Source: Oleiharenicola lentus
GTDB lineage: Bacteria; Verrucomicrobiota; Verrucomicrobiia; Opitutales; Opitutaceae
Assembly (NCBI RefSeq): GCF_004118375.1
Contig: NZ_SDHX01000002.1
Coordinates: 609,001-673,000, forward strand
Reading direction: 5' to 3'
Length of the DNA: 64,000 nt
Each line of letters begins with the position of its first letter. The first letter of the stretch is position 1. The notes below the pieces were generated by a model. That model saw only the letters and a program-made list of their open reading frames with translations, was not told where the DNA came from and ran no database searches. Positions 9,201-24,023 of the stretch are shown here, in pieces. The position numbers were made by a program, and so were the translations under genes.

Positions 9201-9713
9201 GTGCATGGGGTCGGGTTCGTTCTGACCGAGCACATAGCCCTCGAGCGAAACCAGATGCCCGTTGAGCACGCCCAGTTCGCTCAGCCGCCCCGCCGCGGGC
9301 ACCGGCGCCGGCAGCTGCTCATCGGCGAGGAAGGTCGTCACCACCCGGCTGCCATCAATGCCATAGGCCGGAACCACGGTGCCCTCAATTCGCACGCGCT
9401 GGCCGGCCTTGAGCGGCAGCGCCTTGCCGCTGACGGGCAGGTAGGAAGACAACGCGCCGGTCTGGCCGTAAAGCAGCTTCCAGGCGGGGTCGTAGTAATA
9501 GACGACGATTTCCATCTGCAAGCGGTGTGGCCGTTGCCGATCCGCCTCGGGCACGGTCCAGAAATCGCCGGCCGTGGTGATCACCTTCTCCGGCTCGATC
9601 GGTTCCTGCGCAGATATCCTGCCGCCCGTCAGTCCCATCAAGACCAGCGACAGCACCGCAAAAAAACGGCGCAACCGCACAAGGTTGGCCGGAAATTCTG
9701 GGATGGATGCCAC
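6222..9713 (-). CDS. Hybrid sensor histidine kinase with OB-fold-like periplasmic array (copy 1)
   Basis: A 1163-residue hybrid kinase. Order: signal/anchor segment (about 15-35), a roughly 690-residue extracytoplasmic region, a membrane span at about 741-765, coiled linker, HisKA with H806 in the HDFNNLL box, HATPase_c (N-box NLVINA, DSGKGIP, SGLGLATV), then a C-terminal receiver with phospho-acceptor D1095 in IFDLTVPGG. The extracytoplasmic part is a string of about six similar modules, each with a pattern like 'L.G.V...., Y.LQD..GG, G..V.V.G', resembling tandem OB folds. Its neighbour downstream in transcription is the nucleosidase gene; upstream is a close paralogue. The stimulus is unknown. 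The HDFNN-type box is typical of complex hybrid kinases of environmental bacteria. Confidence 0.9.
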   Translation of the reverse strand: MASIPEFPANLVRLRRFFAVLSLVLMGLTGGRISAQEPIEPEKVITTAGDFWTVPEADRQRPHRLQMEIVVYYYDPAWKLLYGQTGALSSYLPVSGKALPLKAGQRVRIEGTVVPAYGIDGSRVVTTFLADEQLPAPVPAAGRLSELGVLNGHLVSLEGYVLGQNEPDPMHIEARLWSEGRLINLTVQITGTEPVPQLVGARVRVRGVYDVATDSTGGIQNIQLWSSDRQQVEVLDWLVDDERFRLARTPIERLESAAAQPWVRIVGELRRAENGSGFTVRDDTGQVELAAVQPGAPQPGTTVEVVGRAAAADLGWTLREPLLRPFVSADDSAAARSAGRALPVRLRLAEQVLQLEPTEADHRHPVALRGVVTWSSEHSDRFYLQDISGGVAVRRLAGPAPEFGTSVSVIGVTTRGRHLPEVEARSLEQLGAQTLPPPRRISLEQALSGAEEARWVELRGFVRQVVPSGPWIRLELTAATGEFSAFVPPAEGLQKLPGAMVRVQGVCEAQSNPGQDGAEIRVWVQDQSGVLVDEPSPADPFGLALENIAAVRQLHAAQVSARRMKLQGTVLMHEPGRYLYLQDATGGLFVLSRESGRLAPGTTVEVVGLIGRLGGRPVLREARWRTVAGQPEVVPLVLTDIKRMQPEADARLVRLEAMLRQVITEGHTARLLFQGAGVIFDGTLHTTDSRPLPEPGSRLEATGVYVLEFDEYRRPRSFRLELRSPADLVLRESPSWWTIRRIAYAAAALVVMTLLAAAWVVALRRRVREQTEQIRLQLEKEASLQTELERSSRLESLGVLAGGIAHDFNNLLTAILGNLGLASMDKRVMEAAGDCLAEAERGARRARDITQQLLTFAKGGDPVRTAVALPDIVTEAANFARHGSNVRFEFDLPPNLPPGDVDAGQISRVVHNLVINAVQAMPGGGVVKLGLAAAELPAGEVDALPAGSYLRLTVADSGKGIPPEVLPRIFDPYFSTKSGTGSSGLGLATVRSIVRKHNGHIAVESKVGQGTTFRLWLPAARAGSAPTLESGPDSSAHLPARILVMDDEDVIRRVVGRMLALAGHETVFAVDGAEAVRAYVAARQSGRPFDLVIFDLTVPGGMGGRDALQELLRIDPGVRAVASSGYSSDPIMANPRAYGFRASLPKPYDIPDLMRAVETTRRD

Positions 9714-9817: not shown

Positions 9818-12800
9818 TCAGTCGCGGCGCACTTCCTCCACCGCCCGCAGGAGATCGGGAATATCATAGGGCTTGGGCAGGCTGATGCGGAAGCCAAAGG
9901 CGCGCGGATTGCCCATGACCGGGTCGCTCGAATAACCGCTGGAAGCGATGGCCCGGACATCGGGATCGAGGGCGATGATTTCCTGCAGAGCATCTTTGCC
10001 TCCCATGCCGCCCGGCACGGTAAGGTCGAAGATCACCAAATCAAAGCCCCGGCCGGTTTCCTGCGCGGTCCGGTAAGCGCGGACCGCTTCCGCCCCGTCG
10101 GCGGCAAACGTGGCTTCGTGGCCGGCCAGCGAGAGCATGCGGCCGGCGACGCGGCGGATGACATCCTCGTCATCCATGACCAGAACGCGGGCCGGCTGGT
10201 TGGTGGCCGAGCGGCTGACGGGACTGCCCCGGGGCACGGGCGCCTTCTGGGCCGCGGCGGGCAGCCAGATGCGGAACGTGGTGCCTTGGCCGACTTGCGA
10301 CTCCACCTCGATATGGCCGTTATGCTTCCGGATGATCGAGCGCACGGTCGCGAGCCCGAGCCCGCTGTTGCCCGCCTTGGACTTGGTCGAGAAATAGGGA
10401 TCGAAGATGCGGGGCAAAACCTCGGGCGGAATCCCCTTGCCCGAGTCGGTCACCGTCAGTCGCAGGTAGGAGCCCGCCGGCAGCGCGTCCACCTCATCCG
10501 CGCGCAACGTCGCAGCCGCCAGGGCGAGCCGCACCACGCCGCCGCCCGGCATGGCCTGCACGGCGTTGATCACGAGATTGTGGACGACGCGGGAAATCTG
10601 CCCCGCGTCCACATCGCCGGGCGGCAGGTTGGGCGGAAAATCGAACTCGAACCGCACGTTGGAGCCATGGCGCGCGAAGTTGGCGGCCTCGGTCACGATG
10701 TCGGGCAGCGCCACCGCGGTGCGCACGGGATCGCCGCCCTTGGCAAAGGTGAGCAGCTGCTGCGTAATGTCGCGGGCCCGGCGCGCCCCGCGCTCGGCTT
10801 CGCCAATGCATTCGCCGGCAGCCTCCATGACGCGCTTGTCCATCGCGGCGAGCCCGAGGTTGCCCAGGATGGCGGTGAGCAGGTTGTTGAAATCATGCGC
10901 GATGCCGCCGGCCAGCACGCCGAGCGACTCGAGGCGGGACGAACGTTCCAGTTCGGTCTGCAGGCGCGCCTCCTTTTCCAGCTGATGGCGGATCTGCTCG
11001 GTCTGTTCGTGCACACGGCGACGCAACACGCCCACCCAGATGACCACGGTCAGGATCACCAGCAGCAGCACACCAATGATCGCGAGCGTGCGGCCCGGCG
11101 TCCACCACGGCGGAGTGGACAAAACCTTCACGTCCGCCGGGGCCCGCAGTTCCAGCCGAAAACCGTGCGGGCGCCGGTATTCATCGTATTCGAGCACATA
11201 GACGCCGGTCACTTCCACGCGACTGCCGACATCCGGCAGCTCCCAGGTTGGGGCATTTTGCAGCGTCGCCTCGACGATGCTGTCACCAGACTGGAGGACC
11301 AGGTTCACATTCTGGCCTTCCGGAGCGGCCTGACGCAGCACGCCCTGGATGCGCACCAGCCGGGCGTCCGCCTCGGGCGACGGGCGCGCGGGATTCCCCA
11401 AGACAAGTGGCACCACGGCCGGACCGGCCGGGCCCGGCCTCCAGCTCCCCTCGCGCAGGACCAGACGGTTGCCCACCCGACCGGGGAAGCCCACGGCCTC
11501 GATCCGGTCGCCAACCGTCAGTCTACCGGTGGCCCGCGAGAGGATGAACAGGCCGCTGTCGCCTTCCTGCAGGTAAAGGTAGCGACCGGGCACATGCTGT
11601 AGCACGGTGCCGGTCACCTTCAGGCGGTGGTTGACCAGTTGGGAGACATTGAGCTCGCGCAAGCCGGCGATCGTCTCGCTCGCGACATCAAAGGGGTCGG
11701 CGGGACTGGCCTCGTCCACCAGCACACTGTCGCGATCCTGCACCCACAGGCGAATGTCGGTGATCTCGCGATTGGCATTGGTGACGGCAGAACACACCCC
11801 GCGCACCCGCACCAGGGCTCCGCGCAAAACCAGCAGGGAATCGTCGGGCGGCAGATAAGCTGAAAATTCACCCGTGAAGGTGGTCAGGTCCAGGCGCGTC
11901 CAGCCGTTTTCCCGGGTGACCTGACGGATAAAACCGCGCATCTCCACCCGCTGCCCATCCTCGGCGCCGGACAAAGCTTGTTCCAATGTGACGCCGCGCA
12001 CCGGCGGGATCGCCTGCGTGCCGAGGTAGACCACCTCCAGCGTCTCCACCTCGGGCAGGTAGTCTCCGCGGGTCGTCACCCCGATCAGGCTCAGCTGGGT
12101 CCCGGGGCCAATGCCGCCCACCCGGCGGGGAGGATGACGGACACGCACACCGCCGCTCGCATCCTGCAGATAGAAGAAATCCGCCCGGTCATCCAGCCAG
12201 GTGACCACACCACGGAGCGCGACCGGATAGCGTTTCTCCGCGAGGTCCGGGGGCAACTCAAGCACCTGCTCGGCAAGGCGCAACCGCAGGGGGACCTGCC
12301 CCGGACCCTGGAGCGCGAGCAACGGACGCGCCAGAGAACCGGTGCGACGGAAAAGCGGATCCTGCAGGGTCCAACCGAAATCCGCCGGCGCCGCGCGGCC
12401 AATCACCTCCACGGCCGAACCTTGCTCCAGCATCTGGGGTTGCGCCGTCGCGATCACCACCTGGCCGCTCTCATCGCGCACCGTGATGGATTTGCCCGGC
12501 TCCTGCGCCCGCAACTCACCCGCAATCCGCACCCACGGCTGTTTGGTCACCTGATCCAGCCGGTCGATCGTCGTGCGGGGCAGGCTGAACCGCTCGTCAT
12601 CCGCCAGCCAGCTCACGATCTTGATGTCGTCCTGGCGGGAGGTCCACCCGGCAATATCCTGCAAATTGCCGGAGGGATCGCGGGTGGAGACATAGACGCA
12701 CCGGAACCGGATGCGTGCACCGACGAGCTGGGGCACGGGATCGGTGCCGTTGTTTTGCAGCCGGAGGTTCACGAGGTGATTTTCGCAAAGCACCAGGAAA

Positions 12801-13378
12801 AGCACGTGCGTGAAGTCGGCATCATTTTGGGCAAACACATGGCCCTCCATCTCCACCCACTGGGCATCAAGGGCCGCATAATCGCCGACCCGGCCGGCCG
12901 TCGGCAAGGGCTCGGGCATGGCGTTGGCCTCCAGCACCGTTGCTTTGAGTCTGCTGCCGTCCAACCCCTCGGCCGGGATTATTTGTCCTTCGAGACGAAC
13001 GCGCTGCCCGCTGCGAATCGGGAGCGTTTCGCCCCGCATGGGCAGATAGGCCGTCCCCCCGGCACCCTGCCCCCAGATGAGTTTCCAGGCGGGATCATAG
13101 TAATAGACCGTCAGCTCCATGTCCAAGGCGTGGAGCCGGTCCCGCTCCGCGGCGGGCACGCTCCAAAATTCTCCGGCAGTCCGGATAACCGGTTCTGGCT
13201 GCGCGAACAGCGGCCCGGCGAGCAGCAAGCCGAGCAAGCAGAAACGCGCAGGCAGAAGCCGCGGCATCCGTAAGGAGAGAGCCGGAATCTGAACTAAAAG
13301 GGGCAAGAGGTGATGTCGGACGGTGTCCTGACTCCAACTAATCGACTGGCCGGGAGTGACACTTAAATCTACAGCCAT
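9818..13378 (-). CDS. Hybrid sensor histidine kinase with OB-fold-like periplasmic array (copy 2)
   Basis: A paralogue of the adjacent copy with the same architecture: signal sequence, long extracytoplasmic array of OB-like modules, membrane span before RRRVHEQTEQ, HisKA with H828 in HDFNN, HATPase_c and a C-terminal receiver with D1118 (numbering from the ATG at 13378). That ATG has GAGGA just upstream; a later ATG at 13267 begins right at the signal peptide (LLPARFCLLGLLLAGPLFA) but has no ribosome site. By eye the kinase and ATPase parts are nearly identical to copy 1 over about 230 residues, whereas the sensor parts have diverged strongly. Tandem duplication is clear. Shared output with a different stimulus is inferred. 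Confidence 0.88.
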   Translation of the reverse strand: MAVDLSVTPGQSISWSQDTVRHHLLPLLVQIPALSLRMPRLLPARFCLLGLLLAGPLFAQPEPVIRTAGEFWSVPAAERDRLHALDMELTVYYYDPAWKLIWGQGAGGTAYLPMRGETLPIRSGQRVRLEGQIIPAEGLDGSRLKATVLEANAMPEPLPTAGRVGDYAALDAQWVEMEGHVFAQNDADFTHVLFLVLCENHLVNLRLQNNGTDPVPQLVGARIRFRCVYVSTRDPSGNLQDIAGWTSRQDDIKIVSWLADDERFSLPRTTIDRLDQVTKQPWVRIAGELRAQEPGKSITVRDESGQVVIATAQPQMLEQGSAVEVIGRAAPADFGWTLQDPLFRRTGSLARPLLALQGPGQVPLRLRLAEQVLELPPDLAEKRYPVALRGVVTWLDDRADFFYLQDASGGVRVRHPPRRVGGIGPGTQLSLIGVTTRGDYLPEVETLEVVYLGTQAIPPVRGVTLEQALSGAEDGQRVEMRGFIRQVTRENGWTRLDLTTFTGEFSAYLPPDDSLLVLRGALVRVRGVCSAVTNANREITDIRLWVQDRDSVLVDEASPADPFDVASETIAGLRELNVSQLVNHRLKVTGTVLQHVPGRYLYLQEGDSGLFILSRATGRLTVGDRIEAVGFPGRVGNRLVLREGSWRPGPAGPAVVPLVLGNPARPSPEADARLVRIQGVLRQAAPEGQNVNLVLQSGDSIVEATLQNAPTWELPDVGSRVEVTGVYVLEYDEYRRPHGFRLELRAPADVKVLSTPPWWTPGRTLAIIGVLLLVILTVVIWVGVLRRRVHEQTEQIRHQLEKEARLQTELERSSRLESLGVLAGGIAHDFNNLLTAILGNLGLAAMDKRVMEAAGECIGEAERGARRARDITQQLLTFAKGGDPVRTAVALPDIVTEAANFARHGSNVRFEFDFPPNLPPGDVDAGQISRVVHNLVINAVQAMPGGGVVRLALAAATLRADEVDALPAGSYLRLTVTDSGKGIPPEVLPRIFDPYFSTKSKAGNSGLGLATVRSIIRKHNGHIEVESQVGQGTTFRIWLPAAAQKAPVPRGSPVSRSATNQPARVLVMDDEDVIRRVAGRMLSLAGHEATFAADGAEAVRAYRTAQETGRGFDLVIFDLTVPGGMGGKDALQEIIALDPDVRAIASSGYSSDPVMGNPRAFGFRISLPKPYDIPDLLRAVEEVRRD

Positions 13379-13421
13379 GAAATCCTCTTCCACGCAAAAT
13401 TCAACGGAACAGCACCGGCCA

Positions 13422-14597: not shown

Positions 14598-14685
14598 ACG
14601 CGGCGGCCAAATCCGGGCCGAATCCGGCACAGACCAAGCTTCGGATTGCCAAACGCGCGGGCACTGTCCAGCCTGCGTGACGCCC

Positions 14686-15837
14686 ATGTCCGACACCGCT
14701 TCGCCTGTCCTGCCCGCCCCTGCCAAGGTTCGCCCCAAGGTGCTGGTCGTCGATGACGAGCTCGGCCCGCGCGAGAGCATCAGTTACCTCCTCCAGGAGG
14801 AGTTCGAGGTCGTGGCCGTGGACCGCGTGGACCACGGCCTGGAGCAGATCAAGCAGGGCAACTTCGCCTGTGTGATCATGGACATCCGCATGCCGCAGAA
14901 AAACGGCATCCAGGGCCTCGAGGCCATGCGCAAGATCGATCCCGAGGTCTCGATCATCATGATGACCGGTTACGGCGCCCTCGCGACGGCGCAAGCCGCC
15001 ATCAGCCTCGGCGCAAACGAGTATCTCAAGAAACCCTTCGACGTGGACGTGCTGCAACAGGCGGTGCGCCGGCATGTCGCCGAGGGCATCGAGCGCAAGA
15101 AGCGCACCGGCATGCTCAGCCAGCTCGAGAGCATGTATGAGTCGGTGATGACCGAGCAGAAAAAGCAGCAGCTTTCCTCCGGTTTCAGCCAGGCCGCCGC
15201 CGCCATGGTGCACGACATCTGCAACCCGCTCGTCGTATCCATCGGCTACACCAACATGCTCCTCGACGAGGTGCGCCAGCTGCCGCCCGCCGGCCGCGCC
15301 GGCGAACGCATTCTGCAATACGCCGAGACCCTCGAGAAGTGCGCCTCGTTCTGCCTGCACCTGGCCGAGTCCTGGCGCCAGACCACCCGCCACGCCAACG
15401 AAGTGGACACGGTGGACCTTTACGAAACGGCGGTTGAAACCAAGGGCGTGCTGTTTTTCGGCACCAACCGCATCGAGGTCACCGGCAGCCGCGGCGGCAT
15501 CATCAACGGCATCCGCTTCGAACTGGTCCGCCTGCTCCAAAACCTGATCAAGAACGCGCTGGAAGCCGGCGCGTCGCAGGTCACCGTCTCCGTCGAGCGC
15601 CGCGACCGCTCGGTCATACTCGCCATCGCCGACAATGGCAGCGGCCTACCTCCGGCGGTGATGGAGAGCATCCTCAAGAAGCCGATCGAGTCGACCAAGG
15701 CCCATGGCACCGGCCTGGGCATGACGATTTGCCGCCATATCGTGTCCGTGCACCGCGGCGAAATGAAGGTTGGTCCGCGTCCCGGCGGCGGCACGGTCTT
15801 CACCGTGACCTTCCCCGAGGCGACGACGACCGCCTAG
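14686..15837 (+). CDS. Soluble response regulator-histidine kinase protein
   Basis: A 383-residue cytoplasmic signalling protein with receiver first and kinase second. The receiver has the acidic pair D23-D24, phospho-acceptor D66 in IMDIRMP, and K113 in YLKKPF. A helical linker leads to the H-box, with H174 in MVHDICNPL, and then an ATPase domain with NLIKNALEA, DNGSGLPP and GTGLGMTI. No membrane segment is present. This receiver-first layout is used by intermediates that pass a signal from another kinase. It follows the ABC ATPase gene after 88 bases. The ATG at 14686 is preferred to a GTG at 14677. Its stop codon overlaps the end of the convergent pseudogene. Confidence 0.9.
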   Translation: MSDTASPVLPAPAKVRPKVLVVDDELGPRESISYLLQEEFEVVAVDRVDHGLEQIKQGNFACVIMDIRMPQKNGIQGLEAMRKIDPEVSIIMMTGYGALATAQAAISLGANEYLKKPFDVDVLQQAVRRHVAEGIERKKRTGMLSQLESMYESVMTEQKKQQLSSGFSQAAAAMVHDICNPLVVSIGYTNMLLDEVRQLPPAGRAGERILQYAETLEKCASFCLHLAESWRQTTRHANEVDTVDLYETAVETKGVLFFGTNRIEVTGSRGGIINGIRFELVRLLQNLIKNALEAGASQVTVSVERRDRSVILAIADNGSGLPPAVMESILKKPIESTKAHGTGLGMTICRHIVSVHRGEMKVGPRPGGGTVFTVTFPEATTTA

Positions 15838-16079
15838 GCCGCCAGCGGCGCCAGTCCGGCGCGCAACCACGCGGCGATCGCCGCGTGATCCGGCACCGCA
15901 AAGCCGCGGGTCCGGGCCACCGCCGGTGCGACCTCCTCGAAAAGATCCAGCTCGGCGAGCAGCGCGCGGGCCAGAGCCCGCCGGTCCGGCGCCACGGCGA
16001 AGTGCGTTTGGGCCAGGCGCCGCGGCTCCAGCCACTGTTCCGCCTTGCGCGCCTCCGGCCGGGCCTTCTTGAGCGCCAG
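15834..16079 (-). pseudogene. 3' fragment of an aminoglycoside 6-adenylyltransferase-like gene
   Basis: Read on the minus strand, 81 codons remain open from an in-frame TGA at 16080-16082 to TAG at 15834-15836. The encoded residues ARPEARKAEQWL, RALARALLAELDL and DHAAIAAWLRA match the C-terminus of the intact gene at 17881-18801 nearly word for word. No start codon or nucleotidyltransferase core is left, so this is a 5'-truncated copy. It lies on the far side of the two dehydrogenase genes from the intact copy, suggesting duplication followed by deletion or insertion. Confidence 0.8.
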
Positions 16080-16211
16080 TCATACTGGCCTCTTCCAGCT
16101 GCACCTGCTTGAGCAAGCACGTCACGCCTGATACAGAGCTTGCTTCCGCTTTCGCCGGTGAAAGCGCACAATCTGCCACCTACCTTCCGCCGGAACGCAT
16201 TGAACTCACGT

Positions 16212-17045
16212 CTACTTTTCAGACCGATTGAAAAATTTGTGCGCGAGGGCGTCCAGCAGACTTGTGGGCAACCAACGCTTCAAGGTAAGCTGCACCCGCG
16301 CACTGGAGCCCACCACGTAACGTGATTTCGCGTGCGGATCGGCGATGGCCGAGTGGATGGCTCGCACGACCTGGGCGGGATCCACCCCGTTTTGCGCCGC
16401 TTTCTCGGTGATAAGTTGCGCGCTTCCCCAGGCTTTTTGGTAATTTTCAGGAGCGTTGGTGATCTGAGAGATCTGGGCCGCGGCTTTTTGCCAGATGGGC
16501 GTTTTCACGGCTCCGGGCACAATCAGGCTCACCTGCACACCGCTGCCTCGAAGCTCCATGCGAAGTGCATCACTCAGACCTTCGAGCGCAAACTTACTGG
16601 CCGCATACGCCGATGCAAAGGGCAGGGCGATGTGCGCCGACGTGGAGCTCACGTTCACGATGCGCCCCCGTGTTTTGCGGAGCTGGGGCAGAAATTTTTG
16701 AATGAGCGCGACCGGGGCCAGATAATTGACCTCCATCGAGCCGCGGAAAGCCTCCAGCTCACTGGTTTCCACGGGACCAATTTTGAGCATGGCGGCATTG
16801 TTCACGAGGGCAAAAAGCCCCTCCGGCTCCGCCGCGTTGATGCGTTCAAAGGCCGCGTGGATCTGTTCTGGCCGGGTAACATCCAGGGCCAATGTCGTCA
16901 GGGAACCTCTGGCCTCCCTGCGCAGGGCTTCACCGTCGGAAGGCTTTCTCACGCCCGCGTAAACGCGAAAGCCCTTTTCACTGAGGGCAAGGGCGCAGGC
17001 TTTGCCGATGCCGGTGGAAGCACCGGTGACGAGAACCGCCTTCAA
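16212..17045 (-). CDS. Short-chain dehydrogenase/reductase (SDR 1)
   Basis: A 277-residue classical SDR, an NAD(P)-dependent oxidoreductase. The Rossmann motif is TGASTGIG (7-14), the NNAA motif is at 82-85, and the catalytic residues are Y147 and K151 in YAASK with the serine in NVSSTS. The C-terminal tail (about 200-277) with LTKRWLP-like residues resembles the retinol/steroid dehydrogenase-like group that often acts on lipophilic substrates. Its ATG overlaps the stop of the upstream SDR gene by four bases (ATGA), so the two are translationally coupled. Base composition looks less GC-rich than its neighbours, consistent with acquisition. The substrate is unknown. Confidence 0.88.
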   Translation of the reverse strand: MKAVLVTGASTGIGKACALALSEKGFRVYAGVRKPSDGEALRREARGSLTTLALDVTRPEQIHAAFERINAAEPEGLFALVNNAAMLKIGPVETSELEAFRGSMEVNYLAPVALIQKFLPQLRKTRGRIVNVSSTSAHIALPFASAYAASKFALEGLSDALRMELRGSGVQVSLIVPGAVKTPIWQKAAAQISQITNAPENYQKAWGSAQLITEKAAQNGVDPAQVVRAIHSAIADPHAKSRYVVGSSARVQLTLKRWLPTSLLDALAHKFFNRSEK

Positions 17046-17815
17046 GGGCTGACCCCCATCCGGTTTTGGCGCGGGCGGAGCAGCCTTTCCCGAACGCGCC
17101 TGGGCAACCTTGCCAAAATAAACGTGAGATACCGGATACCCCGGGGAATCACCACGAGTTCCTTTTTGTCCTCAATGGCCTGAAAGGCCAAACGCGCAGC
17201 TTCGACGGGAGCAAGGAGGAAGGGAATACCATCAAGGCCCGGCTGGGTGGCGCGCGCCAGCGGCGTGTCGATGTAACCTGGCGCGATACAGCTCACCGTG
17301 ATGCCGTCTTTTTTAAGATCCATAGCAAGGGACTCGCAGTAGCGCACGAGTGCCATCTTCGAGGCGCTGTATGCTCCCACTTTCGACAATGGTAAGTAAG
17401 CCGCGGCCGAGGCGATCGCCACGATCTGCCCTTTCTTCTCCGGAAGCATCACATCCAGCGCCGCTTCTGCGGTGTGAAGAAAGCCTTTGAGGTTCACATC
17501 GAAAATGAGATGCTCGCGATCAAAGTCGACCGAAGCAATTTGCTCTCTGGGACGCCCGTTGTTCACGCCTGCGGAGGCGATGACACAGTCCAGCGTTTGC
17601 CCTGCCGAAAAAGCCTTGAGCACCCGCCGGGTGGCGTCCCGGTCCCGCACGTCGAGCTCATAAAACTCAGGCTTCGGCGCGGTCGCCCGCGGGAAAGCTG
17701 CCTCGAAATTTTCCAACGTTCCACCGCACACGCCCACCCGTGCACCCTTGGAAAGATAGAGCTCGGCAAGGGCTGCGCCCAAACCGCTAGTGCCCCCGGT
17801 GATAAAAATGTTCAT
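17042..17815 (-). CDS. Short-chain dehydrogenase/reductase (SDR 2)
   Basis: A 257-residue classical SDR with TGGTSGLG (6-13), the serine in AIASAAA (S136), Y149 and K153 in YSASK. The substrate loop contains PGYIDTPL, as is common in the family. I chose the ATG at 17815 because GGGAGGG lies about 10 bases upstream and the protein starts exactly at the first Rossmann strand; the longer upstream frame overlaps the nucleotidyltransferase gene. It is the first gene of a two-gene unit with SDR 1. Consecutive reduction steps on a lipid-like substrate are plausible but only inferred. Confidence 0.88.
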   Translation of the reverse strand: MNIFITGGTSGLGAALAELYLSKGARVGVCGGTLENFEAAFPRATAPKPEFYELDVRDRDATRRVLKAFSAGQTLDCVIASAGVNNGRPREQIASVDFDREHLIFDVNLKGFLHTAEAALDVMLPEKKGQIVAIASAAAYLPLSKVGAYSASKMALVRYCESLAMDLKKDGITVSCIAPGYIDTPLARATQPGLDGIPFLLAPVEAARLAFQAIEDKKELVVIPRGIRYLTFILARLPRRVRERLLRPRQNRMGVSP

Positions 17816-17880
17816 GTGTTGCCCTCCCGAAAGAGGATTGGAATGGCGGAATCTTCGGCTCCATACCCGGCTTTGTCCGC

Positions 17881-18801
17881 TTAGGGCCTGGCCAGGATTT
17901 TGTCCAGCTCGGCCCGCAACCAGGCCGCGACCGCAGAGTGATCGGTCTGGGCGAACCCGCCCGACTGCGCAACGCTGCAACTCACTTCCTCGCACAGTTC
18001 GATTTCCGCCAGCAGCGCCCGCGCGAGGGCCTTTGCATCCAGACAGGTGGCGATATCCGTCTGTCGCAGCCGCCGGGCATCGAGCCATTGCTCGGCCTTG
18101 CGCGCCTCGGGCCGCGCCGGCCGACCGGCCAACCGCGCCTCTTCCGCCAGAAGGGCCAGCAGGTGATCCATGAGCTCCACGTGGTTCCATCGGGCCGCCG
18201 CGCGCAGTTCGCCGCGCGCAATTTTCTTCTGCACCCAGACAGAATGACGCCAGAAACCCCGGACATGAAACTCGAAATCCGCGGCGGAGAACGCCTCCTC
18301 CGGCCAAGGGTTCGCGGCCGCCGCCAGCCGCTTTTCCCAAGCGGCTCCGCCGAGCATCACCCGGTGGCCCGGACGAACCACGACCCGGGTATTCGCGATC
18401 GCACGCCGCAATGTGGCCGGGTAGAGTCCGCGCCACGCCGGCCGGGCCATGGCCCAATAAACCAATTTCATCAACCGGCTGGGCATCAAGACGAGATCCA
18501 CCTCACACCCACCGGCAAAAACCACGCTGAGCTTGTCTACGCCGCGCTCGGTCCTTTCGAGATGCGTGCTCCAACAGGGCGCGATGGCGGCCAGCCAGCC
18601 GGCATCGCGGTAGCGCGCGGGATTCGTGCTAAACAGCTGAAAATCCAAATCGGACCAGGCATCCACCTGCCCGCCGGGCTGGACCCGTGACCCGATCTGG
18701 ACGAGGGCCGAGACATCGGGCCGTCGCCGCGCCCACTCCACAATACGGTTCTCAATTTCCTCGGCGGTCATGCGGTCGGATATGGGCGACACGCGGCGCA
18801 T
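17881..18801 (-). CDS. Aminoglycoside 6-adenylyltransferase-like nucleotidyltransferase
   Basis: A 306-residue protein like the streptomycin/aminoglycoside 6-adenylyltransferase family (AadE/AadK, Adenyl_transf). These enzymes transfer AMP to an antibiotic hydroxyl. The nucleotidyltransferase signature is seen as IGSR (36-39) followed by WSDLDFQLF (49-57), giving the two metal-binding aspartates D51 and D53. The C-terminal helical part with EARKAEQWL and ALARALLAEIEL is also conserved in a truncated copy at 15834-16079. Start: ATG 18801; a second ATG at 18771 is possible. Many chromosomal members do not confer resistance, so antibiotic modification is a family inference only. Confidence 0.82.
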   Translation of the reverse strand: MRRVSPISDRMTAEEIENRIVEWARRRPDVSALVQIGSRVQPGGQVDAWSDLDFQLFSTNPARYRDAGWLAAIAPCWSTHLERTERGVDKLSVVFAGGCEVDLVLMPSRLMKLVYWAMARPAWRGLYPATLRRAIANTRVVVRPGHRVMLGGAAWEKRLAAAANPWPEEAFSAADFEFHVRGFWRHSVWVQKKIARGELRAAARWNHVELMDHLLALLAEEARLAGRPARPEARKAEQWLDARRLRQTDIATCLDAKALARALLAEIELCEEVSCSVAQSGGFAQTDHSAVAAWLRAELDKILARP

Positions 18802-18955
18802 GGCGCAAATCTCTTTTCATCGGCGGGCTTGCCGAATCCATCTTTGTCCGCCTACCTTGCCAGCGTGGTATGGCAACGCGATAGCCTGTCCCTGCTTCAG
18901 CTTAGCGCCAAACTCCTTCCCTTTGTGACTTCCAATCTTGTGACCGCCCCCAGCC

Positions 18956-20164
18956 ATGCGCCGACGCGTTAAGATCACCGGCATCGGCCCGGTCACGCCG
19001 GCGGGCATCGGGCGCGACGCTTTTTTCCGGGGCATCAACGAACCCGTCAGCCGCATCCGCGCGATCAAGCGCTTTGATCCCGGTGCGGGCCCCTTCGTCG
19101 GCGCCGAGGTGCACGACTTCGACCTCGGCGAGTTTGCGCCCGACGAGAATCCGCGCCGGCTCTCCCGGCACACGCAGTTCAGCCTGGTCGCCGCCATGCT
19201 CGCCATGCGCGACGCGGGCCTCGCTCCGGCCGACGTCCGCGGTCTCACCCCGCTGGTTGTCACGGGCACCTCGATCATGGATTTCGAGAAGATCGGTCGC
19301 GGGATGGAGACGGTGATGAAGAAGGGTGTTCGTTACGCCGCCAGCCAGGGCAGCATCATGTATGAGGCGTCGGTGGCGAATGTCGCCGGCAAGATCGCCC
19401 AGTGGCTCGACACGCCCGCACGGATGCTGACAATGCAGACCTCGTGCTGCTCGGGACTCGACGCCGTCGGCCAGGCCTTCGAGCAGATCGCGGCGGGACA
19501 AGCCGAGTTCGCCATCGCCGGCGGCAGCGAATGCCCTCTCTCCTATTACCCCTTGCTCGGCTTCAATGCCGCCGAACTCAGCCCCGCCACGGACGAGAAC
19601 CCGGAGCGGCTCTGCCGGCCCTTCGACCTCTGGCGCACCACCGGCGTGCTCGGTGAGGGCGCGGCCATGTTCGTGCTGGAGCCCGCGAGCAGCCCCCGGC
19701 CCGCGCTCGCGTGGATCACCGGTTACGGTTTCGCCAACGACCCCGACAGCCAGACGGCGCTCGGCCTGACGGATGCGCTGCGCATCGCCCTGGCCAACGC
19801 GCAGCGACGCATCGAGGAAGTGCAGTTCATCAACGCCTGGGGCACCGGCCACCGCTTCATCGACGCGAACGAGACTTATGCGCTCACGCGCCTCTTCGGG
19901 GCCCGCCTCAACGAAATCCCCGTGAGTTCGATCAAGGGAGCCATCGGCACCGCCCTCGGCGCGTCGGGTCCGATCCAGGCCGCAAGCACCGCACTGAGCC
20001 TGCACCACGGGATCCTGCCGCCGACGGTGAACTGGGAAACCCCTGACCCGGGCTGCCCGCTCAACCTTTCGCCCCAGCCCCGTCGGATCCAGGCGGAGAT
20101 CGCCGTGATCAACGCCCACGGCCTGTCGGGCAGCAACTCGGCCCTGGTGTTGGAACGAGCATGA
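18956..20164 (+). CDS. Ketoacyl-synthase homologue lacking both catalytic histidines
   Basis: A 402-residue thiolase-fold protein aligning along its whole length with beta-ketoacyl-ACP synthases (KAS II type). The nucleophile region reads QTSCCSG, keeping a cysteine (C164). The two histidines needed for decarboxylation are replaced: the NAHGT motif reads INAWGTG (W295), and the GH after SSxK reads SSIKGAIGT (T332), while K327 is kept. The C-terminal glycine loop reads AHGLSGSNSA. It is therefore unlikely to be a normal elongating synthase; a chain-length-factor-like, acyl-transfer or ligand-binding role is possible. Its stop overlaps the start of a membrane histidine kinase (ATGA), an unusual partnership. 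No acyl carrier protein or reductase gene is adjacent. Confidence 0.85.
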   Translation: MRRRVKITGIGPVTPAGIGRDAFFRGINEPVSRIRAIKRFDPGAGPFVGAEVHDFDLGEFAPDENPRRLSRHTQFSLVAAMLAMRDAGLAPADVRGLTPLVVTGTSIMDFEKIGRGMETVMKKGVRYAASQGSIMYEASVANVAGKIAQWLDTPARMLTMQTSCCSGLDAVGQAFEQIAAGQAEFAIAGGSECPLSYYPLLGFNAAELSPATDENPERLCRPFDLWRTTGVLGEGAAMFVLEPASSPRPALAWITGYGFANDPDSQTALGLTDALRIALANAQRRIEEVQFINAWGTGHRFIDANETYALTRLFGARLNEIPVSSIKGAIGTALGASGPIQAASTALSLHHGILPPTVNWETPDPGCPLNLSPQPRRIQAEIAVINAHGLSGSNSALVLERA

Positions 20165-22191
20165 CCCCGCTCCTGTTTGCCGTTGCCGTGCTCACCCTGG
20201 CCACCGGCGCAGGGATCCTGTGGAACAATCCGGTCCGTTTCACCAACCGGATGTTCGCCCTCGCCTCCGCGGCCGCGGCCGCGTGGCTCTTCTTTGTCTT
20301 CCAGTCCTTCCGCATCGGCGCACTGTATCCCGAAGTCCCGGACGCAAACCCCGTGCCGTGGCTGCAGGGCGCCGGCGCGGTCGCCGCTTTTTTCCCCTGG
20401 ATCATCTGGTTACTGCTGAATTCAGTCACGACGGCGGAAGGGCAGGTCCTGCAGACCCTCCGGCGCTCCTGGCCCTGGTTCGTGATTGGACTCGCCCTGG
20501 TTGGGCTGAGCTACTCCAACCTGTTCATCCCGCCCGACTCGACACCCGACGAGCCCAAGCGCGGCGTGGGCTACCTGATCTACGGAGTCGTGTGCGTCGG
20601 CCTGTATTCTTTCCTGCTGGTCAGAACCTACCGGCAGATCAAGCAGACAACCGGTGTCCGCAAGATTGAGCTCCAGTTCATCACGTTCAACAGCTCCTTG
20701 GCGTGCCTGCTAGCCATCGGCCTCAACCTGGTGGGCGGCTATCTCGACATCCGCTGGATTTCCCGCCTCAGCCCGCTGGTGGTGCTCGGATTCTACGTGC
20801 TGACTGTCTGGGCCGTGACCATTCATCGTGTGTTCGACTCGCGGCAGGTCTTCCTCAACGTCGCCCAGCGACTGCTCACGATCAGCACACTCGCCGGTGG
20901 CATTCTTTTCGGAACCCAGCTGCTGGGCTTGGTGCTCACCCCGCCGACGGACCTGATTTGCGCAGTCACCCTTTTCAGCACGTTGGCATTCTGGATCGAT
21001 CGCCGGTCGCGCGGGTGGTTCAATCTCAACACGTGGCAAAACACGATCGTCATCCGCCAGGCCGTGCACGATCTCACGCGGCGCGAGCCCGATCCCAACA
21101 AGCTCGTCGCCGAGTTGGAAGCGCTGCTCCGCTCCTGGTGCCAGACGAACTATGCCGCCCTGCTCTTCGACAGCGGCGAGGTCTATGTGTCGGGCAACAT
21201 CGAGCTGGCCAAAGATCGCTCCGGCTTCCGCGCGCTGTGCAAGCAGGGTTGGAGCACACCCGAAAGCTTGCAGCGCCTGCGGCCCGAGCCCGGGCTGGTC
21301 GATCTCCGGCAGTTCCTTACCGAGTTCAACCTCGGCGTCATTGTCACCGCACCCCGCGGCAGCTCCACGCCGTCCTCGATGCTGGCGCTCGGGGTGAAGA
21401 CCAACGCCCGACCGTTCACCTACCCCGAGGTCCAGCAGTTGCAGGAGCTGGCGGAGTTCATGGACAATATCCTCGCGCGCTCGCGGCTTTCCCAACAGGC
21501 GCGCCAGTCCGAACAACTCGCCACCATCGGCCTCATCGGGGCCAGCCTGGCGCACGAGATCCGCAACCCGCTGGTCTCGATCAAGACGTTCTCGCATCTG
21601 CTCTCGACGCGGTTTGATGACCCCGAATTCCGCCGCCGTTTCAGCATGCTCATCCCGGCCGAAGTCGAGCGCATCGACAGCCTCACCCAGCAGCTGCTCG
21701 ATCTTTCCAATCCCCGTCGCCACCAGATGGAACGGATCTCGCTGCACACGATCATGCAGGAAACCACCGACCTCATGCTCGCCCGGGCCCAGGAGGCCAA
21801 GGTGTCCCTCACCATGCAACTGGGCGCGGAAAAGGACACCATCCACGCCGATGGCAGCGCGATCCGGCAGGTTCTCATCAATCTCATCATTAATGCCTTC
21901 CAAGCCCTCGAAGCCCAGGAAACCGAACGCAGGGTCCAACTTCGCTCGCGTAACTCGCCGAATGGCAGCGTGATAATCGAGGTTTCCGACAATGGCCCGG
22001 GCATCGCCCCCGAACAACGCGCCCGACTTTTCCATCCCTTCGTATCCACAAAGACTAAGGGCATGGGCCTGGGCTTGGCCGTTTGCGCAGATATCTTGCA
22101 TGAACACCGGGCAACCATCATTGTGCCCGACATCGGGAGACCCGGAGCCACCTTCCGCATTACCTTTCCATGCCCGCAACCCTCATCCTGA
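20161..22191 (+). CDS. Membrane histidine kinase with multi-span N-terminal sensor
   Basis: A 676-residue kinase. The first 280 residues hold about seven to nine hydrophobic segments, like 7TM-type kinase sensors. A cytoplasmic GAF-like stretch (about 300-430) follows, with APRGSS and LALGVKTNARPFTYPEVQ. Then comes HisKA with H465 in AHEIRNPLVSIK and a complete ATPase domain: NLIINAFQA, DNGPGIAP and KGMGLGLAV. There is no receiver domain. It is translationally coupled to the ketoacyl-synthase-like gene upstream (four-base overlap), and its end overlaps the next gene by 22 bases. Membrane lipid, redox or acyl sensing is plausible; the partner regulator is not identified. Confidence 0.9.
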   Translation: MTPLLFAVAVLTLATGAGILWNNPVRFTNRMFALASAAAAAWLFFVFQSFRIGALYPEVPDANPVPWLQGAGAVAAFFPWIIWLLLNSVTTAEGQVLQTLRRSWPWFVIGLALVGLSYSNLFIPPDSTPDEPKRGVGYLIYGVVCVGLYSFLLVRTYRQIKQTTGVRKIELQFITFNSSLACLLAIGLNLVGGYLDIRWISRLSPLVVLGFYVLTVWAVTIHRVFDSRQVFLNVAQRLLTISTLAGGILFGTQLLGLVLTPPTDLICAVTLFSTLAFWIDRRSRGWFNLNTWQNTIVIRQAVHDLTRREPDPNKLVAELEALLRSWCQTNYAALLFDSGEVYVSGNIELAKDRSGFRALCKQGWSTPESLQRLRPEPGLVDLRQFLTEFNLGVIVTAPRGSSTPSSMLALGVKTNARPFTYPEVQQLQELAEFMDNILARSRLSQQARQSEQLATIGLIGASLAHEIRNPLVSIKTFSHLLSTRFDDPEFRRRFSMLIPAEVERIDSLTQQLLDLSNPRRHQMERISLHTIMQETTDLMLARAQEAKVSLTMQLGAEKDTIHADGSAIRQVLINLIINAFQALEAQETERRVQLRSRNSPNGSVIIEVSDNGPGIAPEQRARLFHPFVSTKTKGMGLGLAVCADILHEHRATIIVPDIGRPGATFRITFPCPQPSS

Positions 22192-24023
22192 CGACCCCCG
22201 ATCCCGGCTTGGAGGCTGCATGGAAGAAGCTGCTCCTACCCCGCGAACCCGCTTTCTTTGCGCGCCCGAACGATTTGCAACGCGAGCTCCTGCGTCCCGG
22301 GGCGCGTGTGTGGATCTCGGATGTGAATGATCCGCGCGCCCGTCTTTCCGCCAGTGCCGGCACGATGATCATCATCGTCGGTGAGCCGCACAGCCATCCG
22401 TTCGAAAACGCCCGGCAGAACCGTTCCGGCCGGCTCTACCTGAGCTATGAGGAAAGCCGCGTGCGGCTCGGGGAATGCGTGAACCTCCTCGAGGAGATCG
22501 CCGAGAAAAACTCCCAGCTGCAGTCGGCGCTCGAGCGCACCCGTCGCAGTGAGGCGCCTTTCCCGCGTGAGACCACCTCGCCGTTTCCCGCCCCCGCACC
22601 GGAGGCCGCCGAATCGTGGGATTTCCTGGAGAGCGCGCTCGCCCATCTGGACGACCAACCGCGGCTGCTCGACGAGTTCCGGCGCGCCGCGCGCTACATC
22701 CTGAAGTCGGGGCGCGTGCATTATTTTTTCCGGCAGGGCGACGCCTTCGTTTCCAACGAGGGCGACCACCGCTGCGACTCGAGCCACCCGCTCGTGCTTT
22801 GGCTGGAGGAACATCCCGCCGCACTGGATCTCAACCAATGGGGCGGCATCGACGACCCCTCCCTCGACGCCCCGATCCGCCAGCAGCTCGTGAGCTGGGG
22901 CGCGCGTCTGCTGATACCCTTGCACGCCAACGGCCAGCTCTTCGGCTGGATGGCCCTGGGGCCGCGGGCCGATGGTTCGCCCTACCGCGAGTCCGACAAG
23001 TTCCGTGCCGTGATGCAGGGCCGTCTGCTCGAGCGCTGCCTGGAGCGGTCGGCCATGCTGCGCGACTACCAGCAGCTGCAGGCGCAGTCCGCGCTGCGGG
23101 CCAAATATCTCTCCGGCTCCCGCCTGCTCACGCGGGCGGAGCTTGCCACCGCCGAGCTGCCGGTCGAGGTGCGCGCCGTCGCGAGCGAGGCGCTGCACAC
23201 CCAGAAGACCGTCACGCAGCCCGCCCGCGTCCCCTACCGTTTCCGCGTGCAGGCCGGCCCGGTCCCGGAAATCGACGGCGTGTGGACCGTGTGGGAGGAG
23301 TCGGCCCCCGAGATCGAGCGCATCACCGCCCTGCTCGAGCAGCACCGCCGCGAACTTTTCCGCAACCTCGGCCTCACGCTCAGCCACGAGCTCTCGAACC
23401 CGCTGGTGTCGCTCGTGACTTTTGCCCAGCTGCTCGCACGCAGCAGCACACCCCCGATCGGCGGGGTGCCGGCCGAGGGAAGCAACCCGCCCATCAGCGG
23501 CGTGGCGCTCGCCCGCGAGGTCGCCCTCACCAACGAGGTCGCCAAGCTCAAGCTGCTCAACGAGCACGCCACGCTCCTGGGCGACATCGCCCAGCCGGCC
23601 GCCAAGAGCGTCAATCTCAACCAGCTGCTGGCCGAACTCACCACCGAGCGCGGCATCACCACCCGCCTGGTTGAGGAACCGGTCGTGCTCCAGCTCGACC
23701 CGAATCTGGTGAAGTTCGCCTTTGGGGCCCTGCTCGAGGCGATCGCCGCCAACCGGCCCGATGAAGGCCTGCAGCATCTCATCCTGACCATGCGTGCCGT
23801 TGGCGCCGGGCCGACCCGCACCGCGGTCATCACCATCGAGGGCAAGCGCCTCGAGCTCGACGGCACGCTCCCGCCCCCCGGCGGCGACGCCACGCCCAAC
23901 CAGGGCCGCCTCTCCGTTTTCCTCGCCCGCGAGATCCTCCGCCTCCACGGCGGCACCCTCCAGGCCGGCCCCGGTCTCAAGGGCACCGACATCCAGATCT
24001 CCCTCGGCTCGCTCCGCGCCTGA
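22170..24023 (+). CDS. Histidine-kinase-like protein with degenerate ATPase (pseudokinase)
   Basis: A 617-residue soluble protein. Residues 1-120 look like a receiver-type fold (ILTTPDPGLE, VWISDVNDP) with a coiled segment after it. About 145-330 are GAF-like (GARLLIPLHANGQLFGWMAL). An H-box follows, with H406 in LSHELSNPLVSL. The ATPase part is broken: where the N-box asparagine should be, the sequence reads GALLEAIAANRP, no DxGxG motif is found, and the G2 box is replaced by GRLSVFLARE. It probably cannot autophosphorylate but could be phosphorylated by, or scaffold, the kinase encoded just upstream, whose 3' end it overlaps. Proline-rich linkers and a GGVP/PPI repeat (430-455) are unusual insertions. 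Confidence 0.82.
   Translation: MPATLILTTPDPGLEAAWKKLLLPREPAFFARPNDLQRELLRPGARVWISDVNDPRARLSASAGTMIIIVGEPHSHPFENARQNRSGRLYLSYEESRVRLGECVNLLEEIAEKNSQLQSALERTRRSEAPFPRETTSPFPAPAPEAAESWDFLESALAHLDDQPRLLDEFRRAARYILKSGRVHYFFRQGDAFVSNEGDHRCDSSHPLVLWLEEHPAALDLNQWGGIDDPSLDAPIRQQLVSWGARLLIPLHANGQLFGWMALGPRADGSPYRESDKFRAVMQGRLLERCLERSAMLRDYQQLQAQSALRAKYLSGSRLLTRAELATAELPVEVRAVASEALHTQKTVTQPARVPYRFRVQAGPVPEIDGVWTVWEESAPEIERITALLEQHRRELFRNLGLTLSHELSNPLVSLVTFAQLLARSSTPPIGGVPAEGSNPPISGVALAREVALTNEVAKLKLLNEHATLLGDIAQPAAKSVNLNQLLAELTTERGITTRLVEEPVVLQLDPNLVKFAFGALLEAIAANRPDEGLQHLILTMRAVGAGPTRTAVITIEGKRLELDGTLPPPGGDATPNQGRLSVFLAREILRLHGGTLQAGPGLKGTDIQISLGSLRA

Follow-up and report, generated by a model that had tools for sequence, protein, structure and literature searches.

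A FabF-like ketosynthase homologue with relocated histidines in a conserved five-gene operon of Opitutaceae, alongside a membrane sensor kinase and a putative phosphotransferase

RpfF-RpfC, CqsA-CqsS, agr and comQXP are pairs of a signal synthase and its receptor, in which an enzyme gene adjoins that of a polytopic sensor kinase whose sensor is variable. Chain length factors (CLFs, KS-beta) of type II polyketide synthases are homologues of ketoacyl synthases (KAS) in which the active-site Cys is replaced, and the receptor of the PpyS signal is a LuxR-type protein. According to PMC4578411, PpyS-type ketosynthases make quorum-sensing signals, and PhyT, as described in PMC5898713, provides a precedent for a kinase-derived phosphotransferase that kept its His box while its ATPase domain degenerated. 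We analyzed a stretch of 64,000 nucleotides from Oleiharenicola lentus (the window; contig NZ_SDHX01000002.1, positions 609,001 to 673,000), in which a KAS gene adjoins a polytopic sensor kinase gene as in the synthase and receptor pairs. The operon differs from those pairs in its KAS-fold enzyme, its putative relay protein (PK) and its NTase, and in that enzyme and sensor were not seen to be exchanged as one block. It shares with PpyS a ketosynthase as possible signal maker, while PpyS has the triad C129-H281-N310. No description of the five-gene system appeared among the matches listed in our literature searches; its features in the window are as follows.

14677..15837, forward strand: RR-HK, a fusion of a receiver (D69) with a histidine kinase that is intact (H179), from Pfam matches and position
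15840..16082, reverse strand: remnant, the C-terminal part of another NTase, with 60% amino acid identity to the present NTase and one stop
17881..18801, reverse strand: NTase, streptomycin-adenylyltransferase family (Pfam PF04439, 3.3e-11), with catalytic-type D51/D53/D102
18956..20164, forward strand: KAS homologue, FabF-like with relocated histidines, 402 aa, from Pfam/NCBIfam, PDB and fold matches and a 67-orthologue table
19445-19447, forward strand: KAS C164 codon
19838-19840, forward strand: KAS W295 codon
19850-19852, forward strand: KAS H299 codon
19934-19936, forward strand: KAS K327 codon
19949-19951, forward strand: KAS T332 codon
20117-20119, forward strand: KAS H388 codon
20161..22191, forward strand: HK, a membrane sensor histidine kinase, 676 aa, with a polytopic N-terminal part (aa 1-290), a GAF-like region, DHp (H465) and an intact CA domain, from domain matches and 64 orthologues
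20161..21030, forward strand: sensor (membrane) part of HK, its most variable part, which co-varies with KAS over the family
22170..24023, forward strand: PK, an HK paralogue, 617 aa, with a receiver-like domain (1-92, D51), a coiled coil, GAF (about 145-300), a PAS-sized domain, DHp (H406) and a CA-like domain without ATP boxes
23385-23387, forward strand: PK H406 codon

By their coordinates in the window the KAS and HK reading frames overlap by 4 nt and those of HK and PK by 22 nt. The three overlapping, coupled genes of the initial annotation were borne out, but the conserved unit comprises five genes: RR-HK, NTase, KAS, HK and PK. The order from KAS to PK is not peculiar to the window and was kept in 60 of the 66 KAS loci fetched from Opitutaceae; four of the other six run into a contig edge and two are decayed. 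All four markers were observed in 60 of the 80 genomes having any of them (200 genomes searched). In most relatives outside the genus RR-HK adjoins KAS on the upstream side, and the NTase lies immediately 3' of PK in relatives outside the genus and is divergent from KAS in Lacunisphaera-type loci. Two cassettes contained RR-HK, HK and PK with no KAS, and these were missing the NTase too. Two further cassettes (L150, L153) are decayed, with Trp295 also gone in both, and some genomes (L158, L159) hold fragments only.

The system appears confined to the family in our searches. Strong PK matches were observed in 11 of 188 genomes of the class, all Opitutaceae, with 10 further matches being weak (best 6.2e-9), and the plasmid search gave no PK match. 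A nucleotide pattern coding for W-[GA]-P-G-H, which is not exhaustive since it misses W-G-T-G-H members including that of the window, matched 15 of 387 genomes of the phylum, 14 in Opitutaceae and one elsewhere that was not a KAS. The counts exclude seven named loci (L026, L027, L030-L034) as duplicates of G genomes already counted. The 67-orthologue KAS set was taken without L150 and L153 (decayed) and L035 (partial), with L135 (in-frame stop) retained; the weak PK matches G164 and G223 were excluded from the 73, the NTase of G190 (HMM match) was added to the 70, and the RR-HK alignment excludes L094, L095, L158 and L159. A sequencing or annotation accident is ruled out by the 67 orthologues, and since the replacements described below hold in all of these and the order in 60 of 66 loci, the altered residues and gene order are beyond chance. 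As for a defence system, only RR-HK matched, with two weak matches (0.0011, 0.0037).

KAS matched the Pfam ketoacyl-synt N and C domains (1.3e-32 and 2.8e-21), and its best sequence match among solved structures was FabF (1j3n). It resembles FabF/KAS II in fold (TM 0.91-0.93 for the FabF entries among the matches listed) and in the nucleophile Cys, Lys335 and the D265 and N404 gate skeleton, and departs from it in both catalytic histidines, in T307 and F398 (each now His), in loss of the Phe400 gate and in a shorter loop 2. Alignment to E. coli FabF placed C163 at C164, K335 at K327, H303 at W295 and H340 at T332, in agreement with the initial annotation, which had the Cys and Lys kept with Trp and Thr at the catalytic-histidine sites. 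Over the 67 orthologues (mean pairwise identity 53%), C164 and K327 are each invariant (67/67) and no member has His at either old catalytic site (0/67), so that relatives with intact histidines, which would have told against that annotation, were not observed. Conservation of the two replacements was divided: the H303 site holds Trp in 66 and Cys in one, while T332 itself is not conserved, the H340 site being Asn in 48, Thr in 12, Ser in 6 and Ala in one. The Phe400 position is Leu in 49, Val in 11, Ile in 5 and Met in 2.

The pocket is, however, not "histidine-less" as first described, because H299 and H388 are invariant (67/67) and replace T307 and F398, both of which appear in the FabF pocket residue list given in PMC13414712. 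The invariance of Cys164, Lys327, H299 and H388 argues for retained covalent chemistry, and the Trp at the H303 site could block the pocket. The F398 site (H388 here) lined up without gaps against the second catalytic Cys of thiolase, a match read by eye only, since forced global alignments to thiolase and FabH left the C-terminal loop unaligned; in the hhalign alignment T332 fell on the His of the thiolase GHP motif. Unlike a chain length factor, which it resembles as a KAS homologue with changed catalytic residues, this protein kept its Cys in 67/67, and the window showed no second KAS gene next to it. Its NCBIfam fabF score of 246.2 is below the curated cut-off of 493.75 bits. Nor is it the housekeeping enzyme: the three other KAS matches in the genome, one of them a separate FabF, all keep both histidines. 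Of the basic patch for AcpP docking set out for FabF in PMC7138838 (K65, R68, K69; R127, K128, R206), R68 is basic in 59/67, K69 is R/K in 45/67, R206 is basic in 5/67 and K128 is mostly gone.

HK carries HisKA and HATPase domains by Pfam, and its hydrophobic segments span about residues 1-276. H465, N574, N578, D610xGxG and G634xGLG are invariant in 64 orthologues, with the H, N, G1 and G2 boxes all in place. PK matched nothing in Pfam at 0.01 or in NCBIfam at 0.001; its profile could nevertheless be aligned to the HK profile across GAF, DHp and CA, the ATP boxes being unmatched. The DxGxG string is absent from 64/65 PK copies (the exception being L154) and present in 64/64 HK, and HATPase_c gave no match at 0.01 in 49 PK members. 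A GxGL string occurs in 26/65 PK, mostly as GPGL; in the window PK it sits in the C-terminal strand rather than where the profile alignment has the G2 site. The ATP boxes had thus been rightly called destroyed, but H406 and E407 are each kept in 65/65, and PK is better read as a putative phospho-acceptor or phosphotransfer protein than as a plain pseudokinase. Like PhyT, Spo0B and ChpT it has a phospho-acceptor His box and lost ATP-binding boxes; unlike them it carries receiver-like and GAF domains of its own, and it adjoins an intact paralogue, HK.

The motif residues of RR-HK were kept in 66-68 of 68 members. Its receiver is N-terminal to the kinase as in LvrB, the Leptospira hybrid response regulator, which belongs to another operon with other partners, and it scored 60.3 of 500 bits against the NCBIfam LvrB model, below the cut-off. 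NTase residues were likewise conserved (G37 61/61, S38 59/61, D51/D53/D102 61/61); a distant member matched the family weakly, only touching Polbeta at 0.023, and no relative was found among solved structures. None of the operon's genes was seen to encode a DNA-binding output protein.

The strongest co-variation of KAS was with the HK sensor (partial Mantel r 0.49, 51 loci, a set excluding L099, L150, L153, L035, L145 and loci missing a part). In the 43 loci with KAS directly flanked on both sides, which additionally exclude Lacunisphaera-type loci, L094, L095, L113, L114, L116 and L143, the value was 0.56-0.59 for the sensor and 0.20-0.28 for the RR-HK kinase, a control that compares regions differing in length and variability. 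Lower values were obtained for the cytoplasmic receiver-like domain of PK (0.30 given sensor), the HK kinase (0.21), the NTase (0.14 given HK kinase) and the HK GAF region (0.12 given HK kinase). The sensors of both KAS-free cassettes diverged more than their kinases predict. Sensor domains generally diverge fast.

Seventeen of 32 well-supported KAS splits conflict with the sensor tree. The window, G283 (L093) and L029 resemble one another in RR-HK, in the kinase part of HK and in PK, but the window and L029 are 79% alike in KAS and only 51% in sensor, while L093 and L029 have closer sensors (62%) than the window has to either, yet KASs 62% alike. KAS and sensor are thus discordant among these three, and joint exchange between close relatives was not observed. 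With L029 as third member, a single swapped block of NTase, KAS and sensor between the window and G283 is ruled out; NTase replacement alone stands, with the 15840..16082 remnant as its scar.

Our preferred reading, held tentatively and short of an even chance, is that KAS makes or presents a ligand read by the HK sensor and relayed through PK in a five-component signalling operon. KAS, a FabF-type protein, would have lost decarboxylating elongation with its catalytic histidines and Phe400 gate, would still form an acyl-enzyme on Cys164 with H299 and H388 as predicted pocket histidines, and would make, modify or present an acyl- or thioester-derived ligand, perhaps with the NTase. The variable membrane part of HK would read this product or acyl state; HK would phosphorylate its own DHp and pass phosphate to or through H406 of PK as phosphotransferase, and also to the receiver of RR-HK. 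Gene order, the invariant KAS residues, KAS-sensor co-variation, H406/E407 of PK and sensor divergence in the KAS-free cassettes speak for this model. Against it are the partly lost ACP-docking patch, the discordance among the window, L093 and L029, the tree conflicts, the two genomes with RR-HK, HK and PK but no KAS, and co-variation of KAS with the PK receiver-like domain and HK kinase but hardly with the NTase.

The switch proposed by the initial annotation, in which a non-turnover KAS binds acyl- or malonyl-thioesters and conveys its bound state to HK or PK through contact between the proteins, is doubtful but the nearest competitor. Loss of both histidines and the gate, coupling of the KAS genes to kinases, and co-variation with HK and, given sensor, with the PK receiver-like domain (r 0.30), a possible docking site for a soluble KAS, would suit it. 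The top co-variation, however, lies with the HK membrane part and the GAF region reaches only 0.12, the two newly placed, invariant histidines of the pocket point to chemistry, and no malonyl-specific feature was found. The part of that proposal that is supported is a regulatory unit in place of a normal elongating KAS, whereas a histidine-free, dead site is not supported; the sequence does not decide between a thioester-sensing and a signal-making KAS. It is unlikely that KAS is instead the output, a lipid- or polyketide-tailoring enzyme regulated by the adjacent sensor system: its active-site invariants and a second enzyme (NTase) in the operon are consistent with this, but it leaves the tie to the sensor part without reason, the neighbours annotated in the window were seen to include neither a carrier protein nor a dehydratase, and the SDR pair beside the locus did not turn up in the other Lacunisphaera-type loci listed (flanks searched with window proteins only). 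Non-functional remnant genes, suggested by the decayed cassettes L150 and L153 and the fragments in L158 and L159, are scarcely credible given invariant residues in 67 orthologues at such divergence and short conserved overlaps.

An extension of our preferred ligand model, to which we give little credence, is a polymorphic signalling locus in which the catalytic histidines of KAS have shifted inside the pocket (one of them to where thiolase has its CxG-loop cysteine), with a lineage-specific acyl-type signal, a co-evolving kinase membrane part and a kinase-derived phosphotransferase relay. If the ligand model is true, a KAS-fold signalling enzyme would connect directly with a two-component phosphorelay, and histidines elsewhere in the same pocket would have replaced the textbook Cys-His-His arrangement. 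The thiolase superfamily would gain a new, testable chemistry, and Opitutaceae a candidate signalling system. On a weaker reading the locus is still a conserved five-gene system, and the operon of this family of environmental bacteria is possibly a system of chemical signalling.

The window holds three genes that the initial annotation had described as coupled, and this was upheld: a ketoacyl synthase homologue (KAS), a membrane sensor histidine kinase (HK) and a kinase-like protein (PK) were observed as open, co-directional frames overlapping by 4 nt (KAS/HK) and 22 nt (HK/PK), in a host genome of 4.7 Mb. A receiver-histidine kinase fusion (RR-HK) and a nucleotidyltransferase (NTase) were also located in the window.

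14677-15837, RR-HK
17881-18801, NTase
18956-20164, strand shared with HK and PK, KAS, open frame
20161-22191, strand shared with KAS and PK, HK, open frame
22170-24023, strand shared with KAS and HK, PK, open frame

A KAS orthologue was observed in 67 of 200 family genomes and PK in 73 of 200 (two weak matches excluded); the ten KAS-similar loci in named genomes were titled Lacunisphaera, Opitutaceae, Opitutia or Verrucomicrobia bacterium. The gene order held in relatives, with PK downstream of KAS, on the same strand and within 3.5 kb, in 60 of the 66 KAS loci fetched with flanks; four of the remaining six stop at a contig edge and two are decayed. HK sits between KAS and PK in the relatives' loci (L-numbers below; their genomes are G-numbers), and at L099 a proximal HK was seen (L044, L070). 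L099 (G354) also contains a second HK-like gene about 4.8 kb 3' of the KAS stop, which scored higher than the proximal one in single alignments to the window HK. For 42 loci the PK start could be aligned, and all but two of them show an HK/PK overlap of 22, 16 or 13 nt. Outside the family, a class sample of 188 genomes gave no PK match of comparable strength, and in a phylum sample of 387 genomes the WGPGH pattern gave one chance match there, not a KAS.

Family-profile and solved-structure matches assigned KAS to the FabF type, and its predicted model (mean pLDDT 88; residues 221-228 below 50) matched FabF entries at TM 0.91-0.93. Alignment to E. coli FabF agreed with the earlier reading that the catalytic Cys and Lys are retained, with Trp295 and Thr332 at the two catalytic-histidine sites; both histidines are present in the genome's three other KAS matches. 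C164 and K327 were invariant in the set of 67 orthologues, from which one partial copy and the two decayed ones had been excluded. Trp was conserved at the H303 site (E. coli FabF numbering; W 66, C 1), and Thr at the H340 site was not (N 48, T 12, S 6, A 1). The claim of a histidine-less active site did not stand, as T307 and F398 are each replaced by His (H299 and H388) in 67/67 orthologues; judged from sequence, the site is rebuilt, not histidine-free. An in-silico docking paper places T307 and F398 among the FabF pocket residues around Cys163 (PMC13414712), and F400 is described as the gate residue, with gating loops coupled by D265 and N404 (PMC7138838). The F400 site is L, V, I or M in the orthologues, with D265 and N404 kept in 67/67. 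Alignment by eye placed a Cys of the thiolase AtoB, which we take to be the second Cys of the thiolase triad, opposite F398 in the C-terminal strand without gaps. A Cys-His-Cys triad is described for thiolases (PMC7337054). Compared with FabF, the ACP-docking patch is about half retained. Ser replaces Trp295 in only two copies, L150 and L153, both in decayed cassettes that contain stops and lack partner genes, so selection appears to keep Trp295 where the cassette is intact, with L139 (Cys) as an exception. The KAS family formed one clade on a long stem against four other KASs (support 0.82), a weak test because outgroups were few. The initial proposal that KAS is a non-turnover acyl sensor is a possible but somewhat doubtful reading.

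The predicted PK model (mean pLDDT 88) comprises receiver-like, coiled-coil, GAF, small PAS-sized, two-helix DHp and CA-like domains, whose placement is uncertain because pTM was 0.51. Its best Foldseek matches were histidine kinases and phytochromes, and Pfam at 0.01 detected GAF in 32 of 49 PK members, HisKA in 5 and HATPase_c in none. Profile comparison makes PK a paralogue of HK, the two profiles aligning across GAF-DHp-CA (98%, 4e-14); distances of the HK and PK kinase regions correlate at 0.96. H406 and E407 were retained in 65/65 PK copies and N410 in 63/65. The DxGxG string is missing from the CA region in 64/65 PK and present in 64/64 HK, and GxGL occurs in 26/65 PK copies, mostly as GPGL, which in the window is located in the C-terminal strand. 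The sole PK with both strings in the CA region is that of L154, a cassette without KAS. PhyT is a published precedent for such a kinase-derived phosphotransferase (PMC5898713), and a role for PK as phosphotransfer partner of HK would fit these features. That KAS is a tailoring enzyme under the control of this signalling system we consider unlikely.

The conserved unit comprises five genes: outside the genus, most relatives carry RR-HK directly upstream of KAS and NTase directly after PK. L113, L116 and L143 have RR-HK at a distance greater by 1.5 kb, and none was found upstream in L094 and L095; in Lacunisphaera-type loci NTase is on the opposite strand, between RR-HK and KAS. All four of RR-HK, KAS, PK and NTase were observed in 60 of the 80 genomes having at least one, some of the others being interrupted by contig ends. 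L154 (G081) and L155 (G141) have RR-HK, HK and PK and lack KAS and NTase; KAS and NTase are not strictly tied, because NTase is present and KAS absent at L159, a broken locus. The RR-HK receiver Asp/Thr/Lys, H179 and the N and G boxes were retained in 66-68 of 68 copies, NTase D51, D53 and D102 in 61/61 and the HK boxes in 64/64; that the cassette genes are degenerate remnants is highly improbable. Decayed and remnant loci were observed: L150 (G315) and L153 (G343) carry a KAS with in-frame stops and Trp295 changed to Ser, HK broken or gone and PK absent, L158 (G345) a short PK fragment adjoining RR-HK, and L159 (G346) the RR-HK region in truncated form together with a PK-like frame and a nucleotidyltransferase. 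RmuC and an ABC ATPase gene flank the cassette in many genomes, Lacunisphaera-type loci being arranged differently.

The window locus, L093 (G283) and L029 are similar in RR-HK, HK kinase (86-89%) and PK. KAS identity was 79% between the window and L029, and 64% and 62% between L093 and these two; in the sensor (the N-terminal membrane part of HK), L093 and L029 share 62% identity, the window sharing 37% with L093 and 51% with L029; NTase identity was 48-57% throughout. NTase, KAS and sensor are thus the variable parts of an otherwise similar locus and were not exchanged as one block here, and joint travel of KAS and sensor was not seen in this closest trio. The discordant KAS and sensor histories are a case of mosaic evolution within the operon. 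A leftover C-terminal tail of a different NTase was observed at 15840-16082 (minus strand), within a stretch of 80% identity to G283; identity was 68% over 17900-20137 (present NTase and KAS) and 79% again from 20965; on these comparisons a replacement at NTase stands. Next to the tail lies a pair of SDR genes (minus strand; 16212-17045 and about 17045-17830), not found in other Lacunisphaera-type loci among the matches listed; in L154 a weak SDR match was seen at a greater distance downstream. Two neighbouring large proteins at 6222-9713 and 9818-13393 (minus strand; 63% mutual identity by tblastn) weakly matched the region of the HK gene in relatives and are probably duplicated large sensor kinases.

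Co-variation was measured as distance correlations with partial Mantel tests over 51 complete loci (1000 permutations, minimum p 0.001). KAS distances correlated best with the sensor, with a partial r of 0.49 given HK kinase (p 0.001, the permutation floor) and also 0.49 given HK kinase, PK GAF and both RR-HK parts; given HK kinase, values were 0.12 for the HK GAF region and 0.14 for NTase. The sensor shared the most splits with the KAS tree (15/48), followed by RR-HK kinase (13); 17 of 32 well-supported KAS splits conflict with the sensor tree. Linkage alone would yield some of this correlation; in 43 loci with RR-HK directly before and HK directly after KAS, which served as a control, KAS-sensor values were 0.56-0.59 versus 0.20-0.28 for KAS and RR-HK kinase. 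Given the sensor, KAS still co-varied with the PK receiver-like part (0.30), HK kinase (0.21), RR-HK kinase (0.14) and PK kinase (0.13). In the two KAS-less cassettes the sensor was more diverged than expected from its kinase (0.287 against 0.363; 0.261 against 0.346; residual sd 0.054), a result that is only suggestive. We infer a ligand, acylation of C164 and each phosphotransfer step; the reading that we tentatively place first, at less than even odds, is that KAS synthesises or presents HK's ligand.
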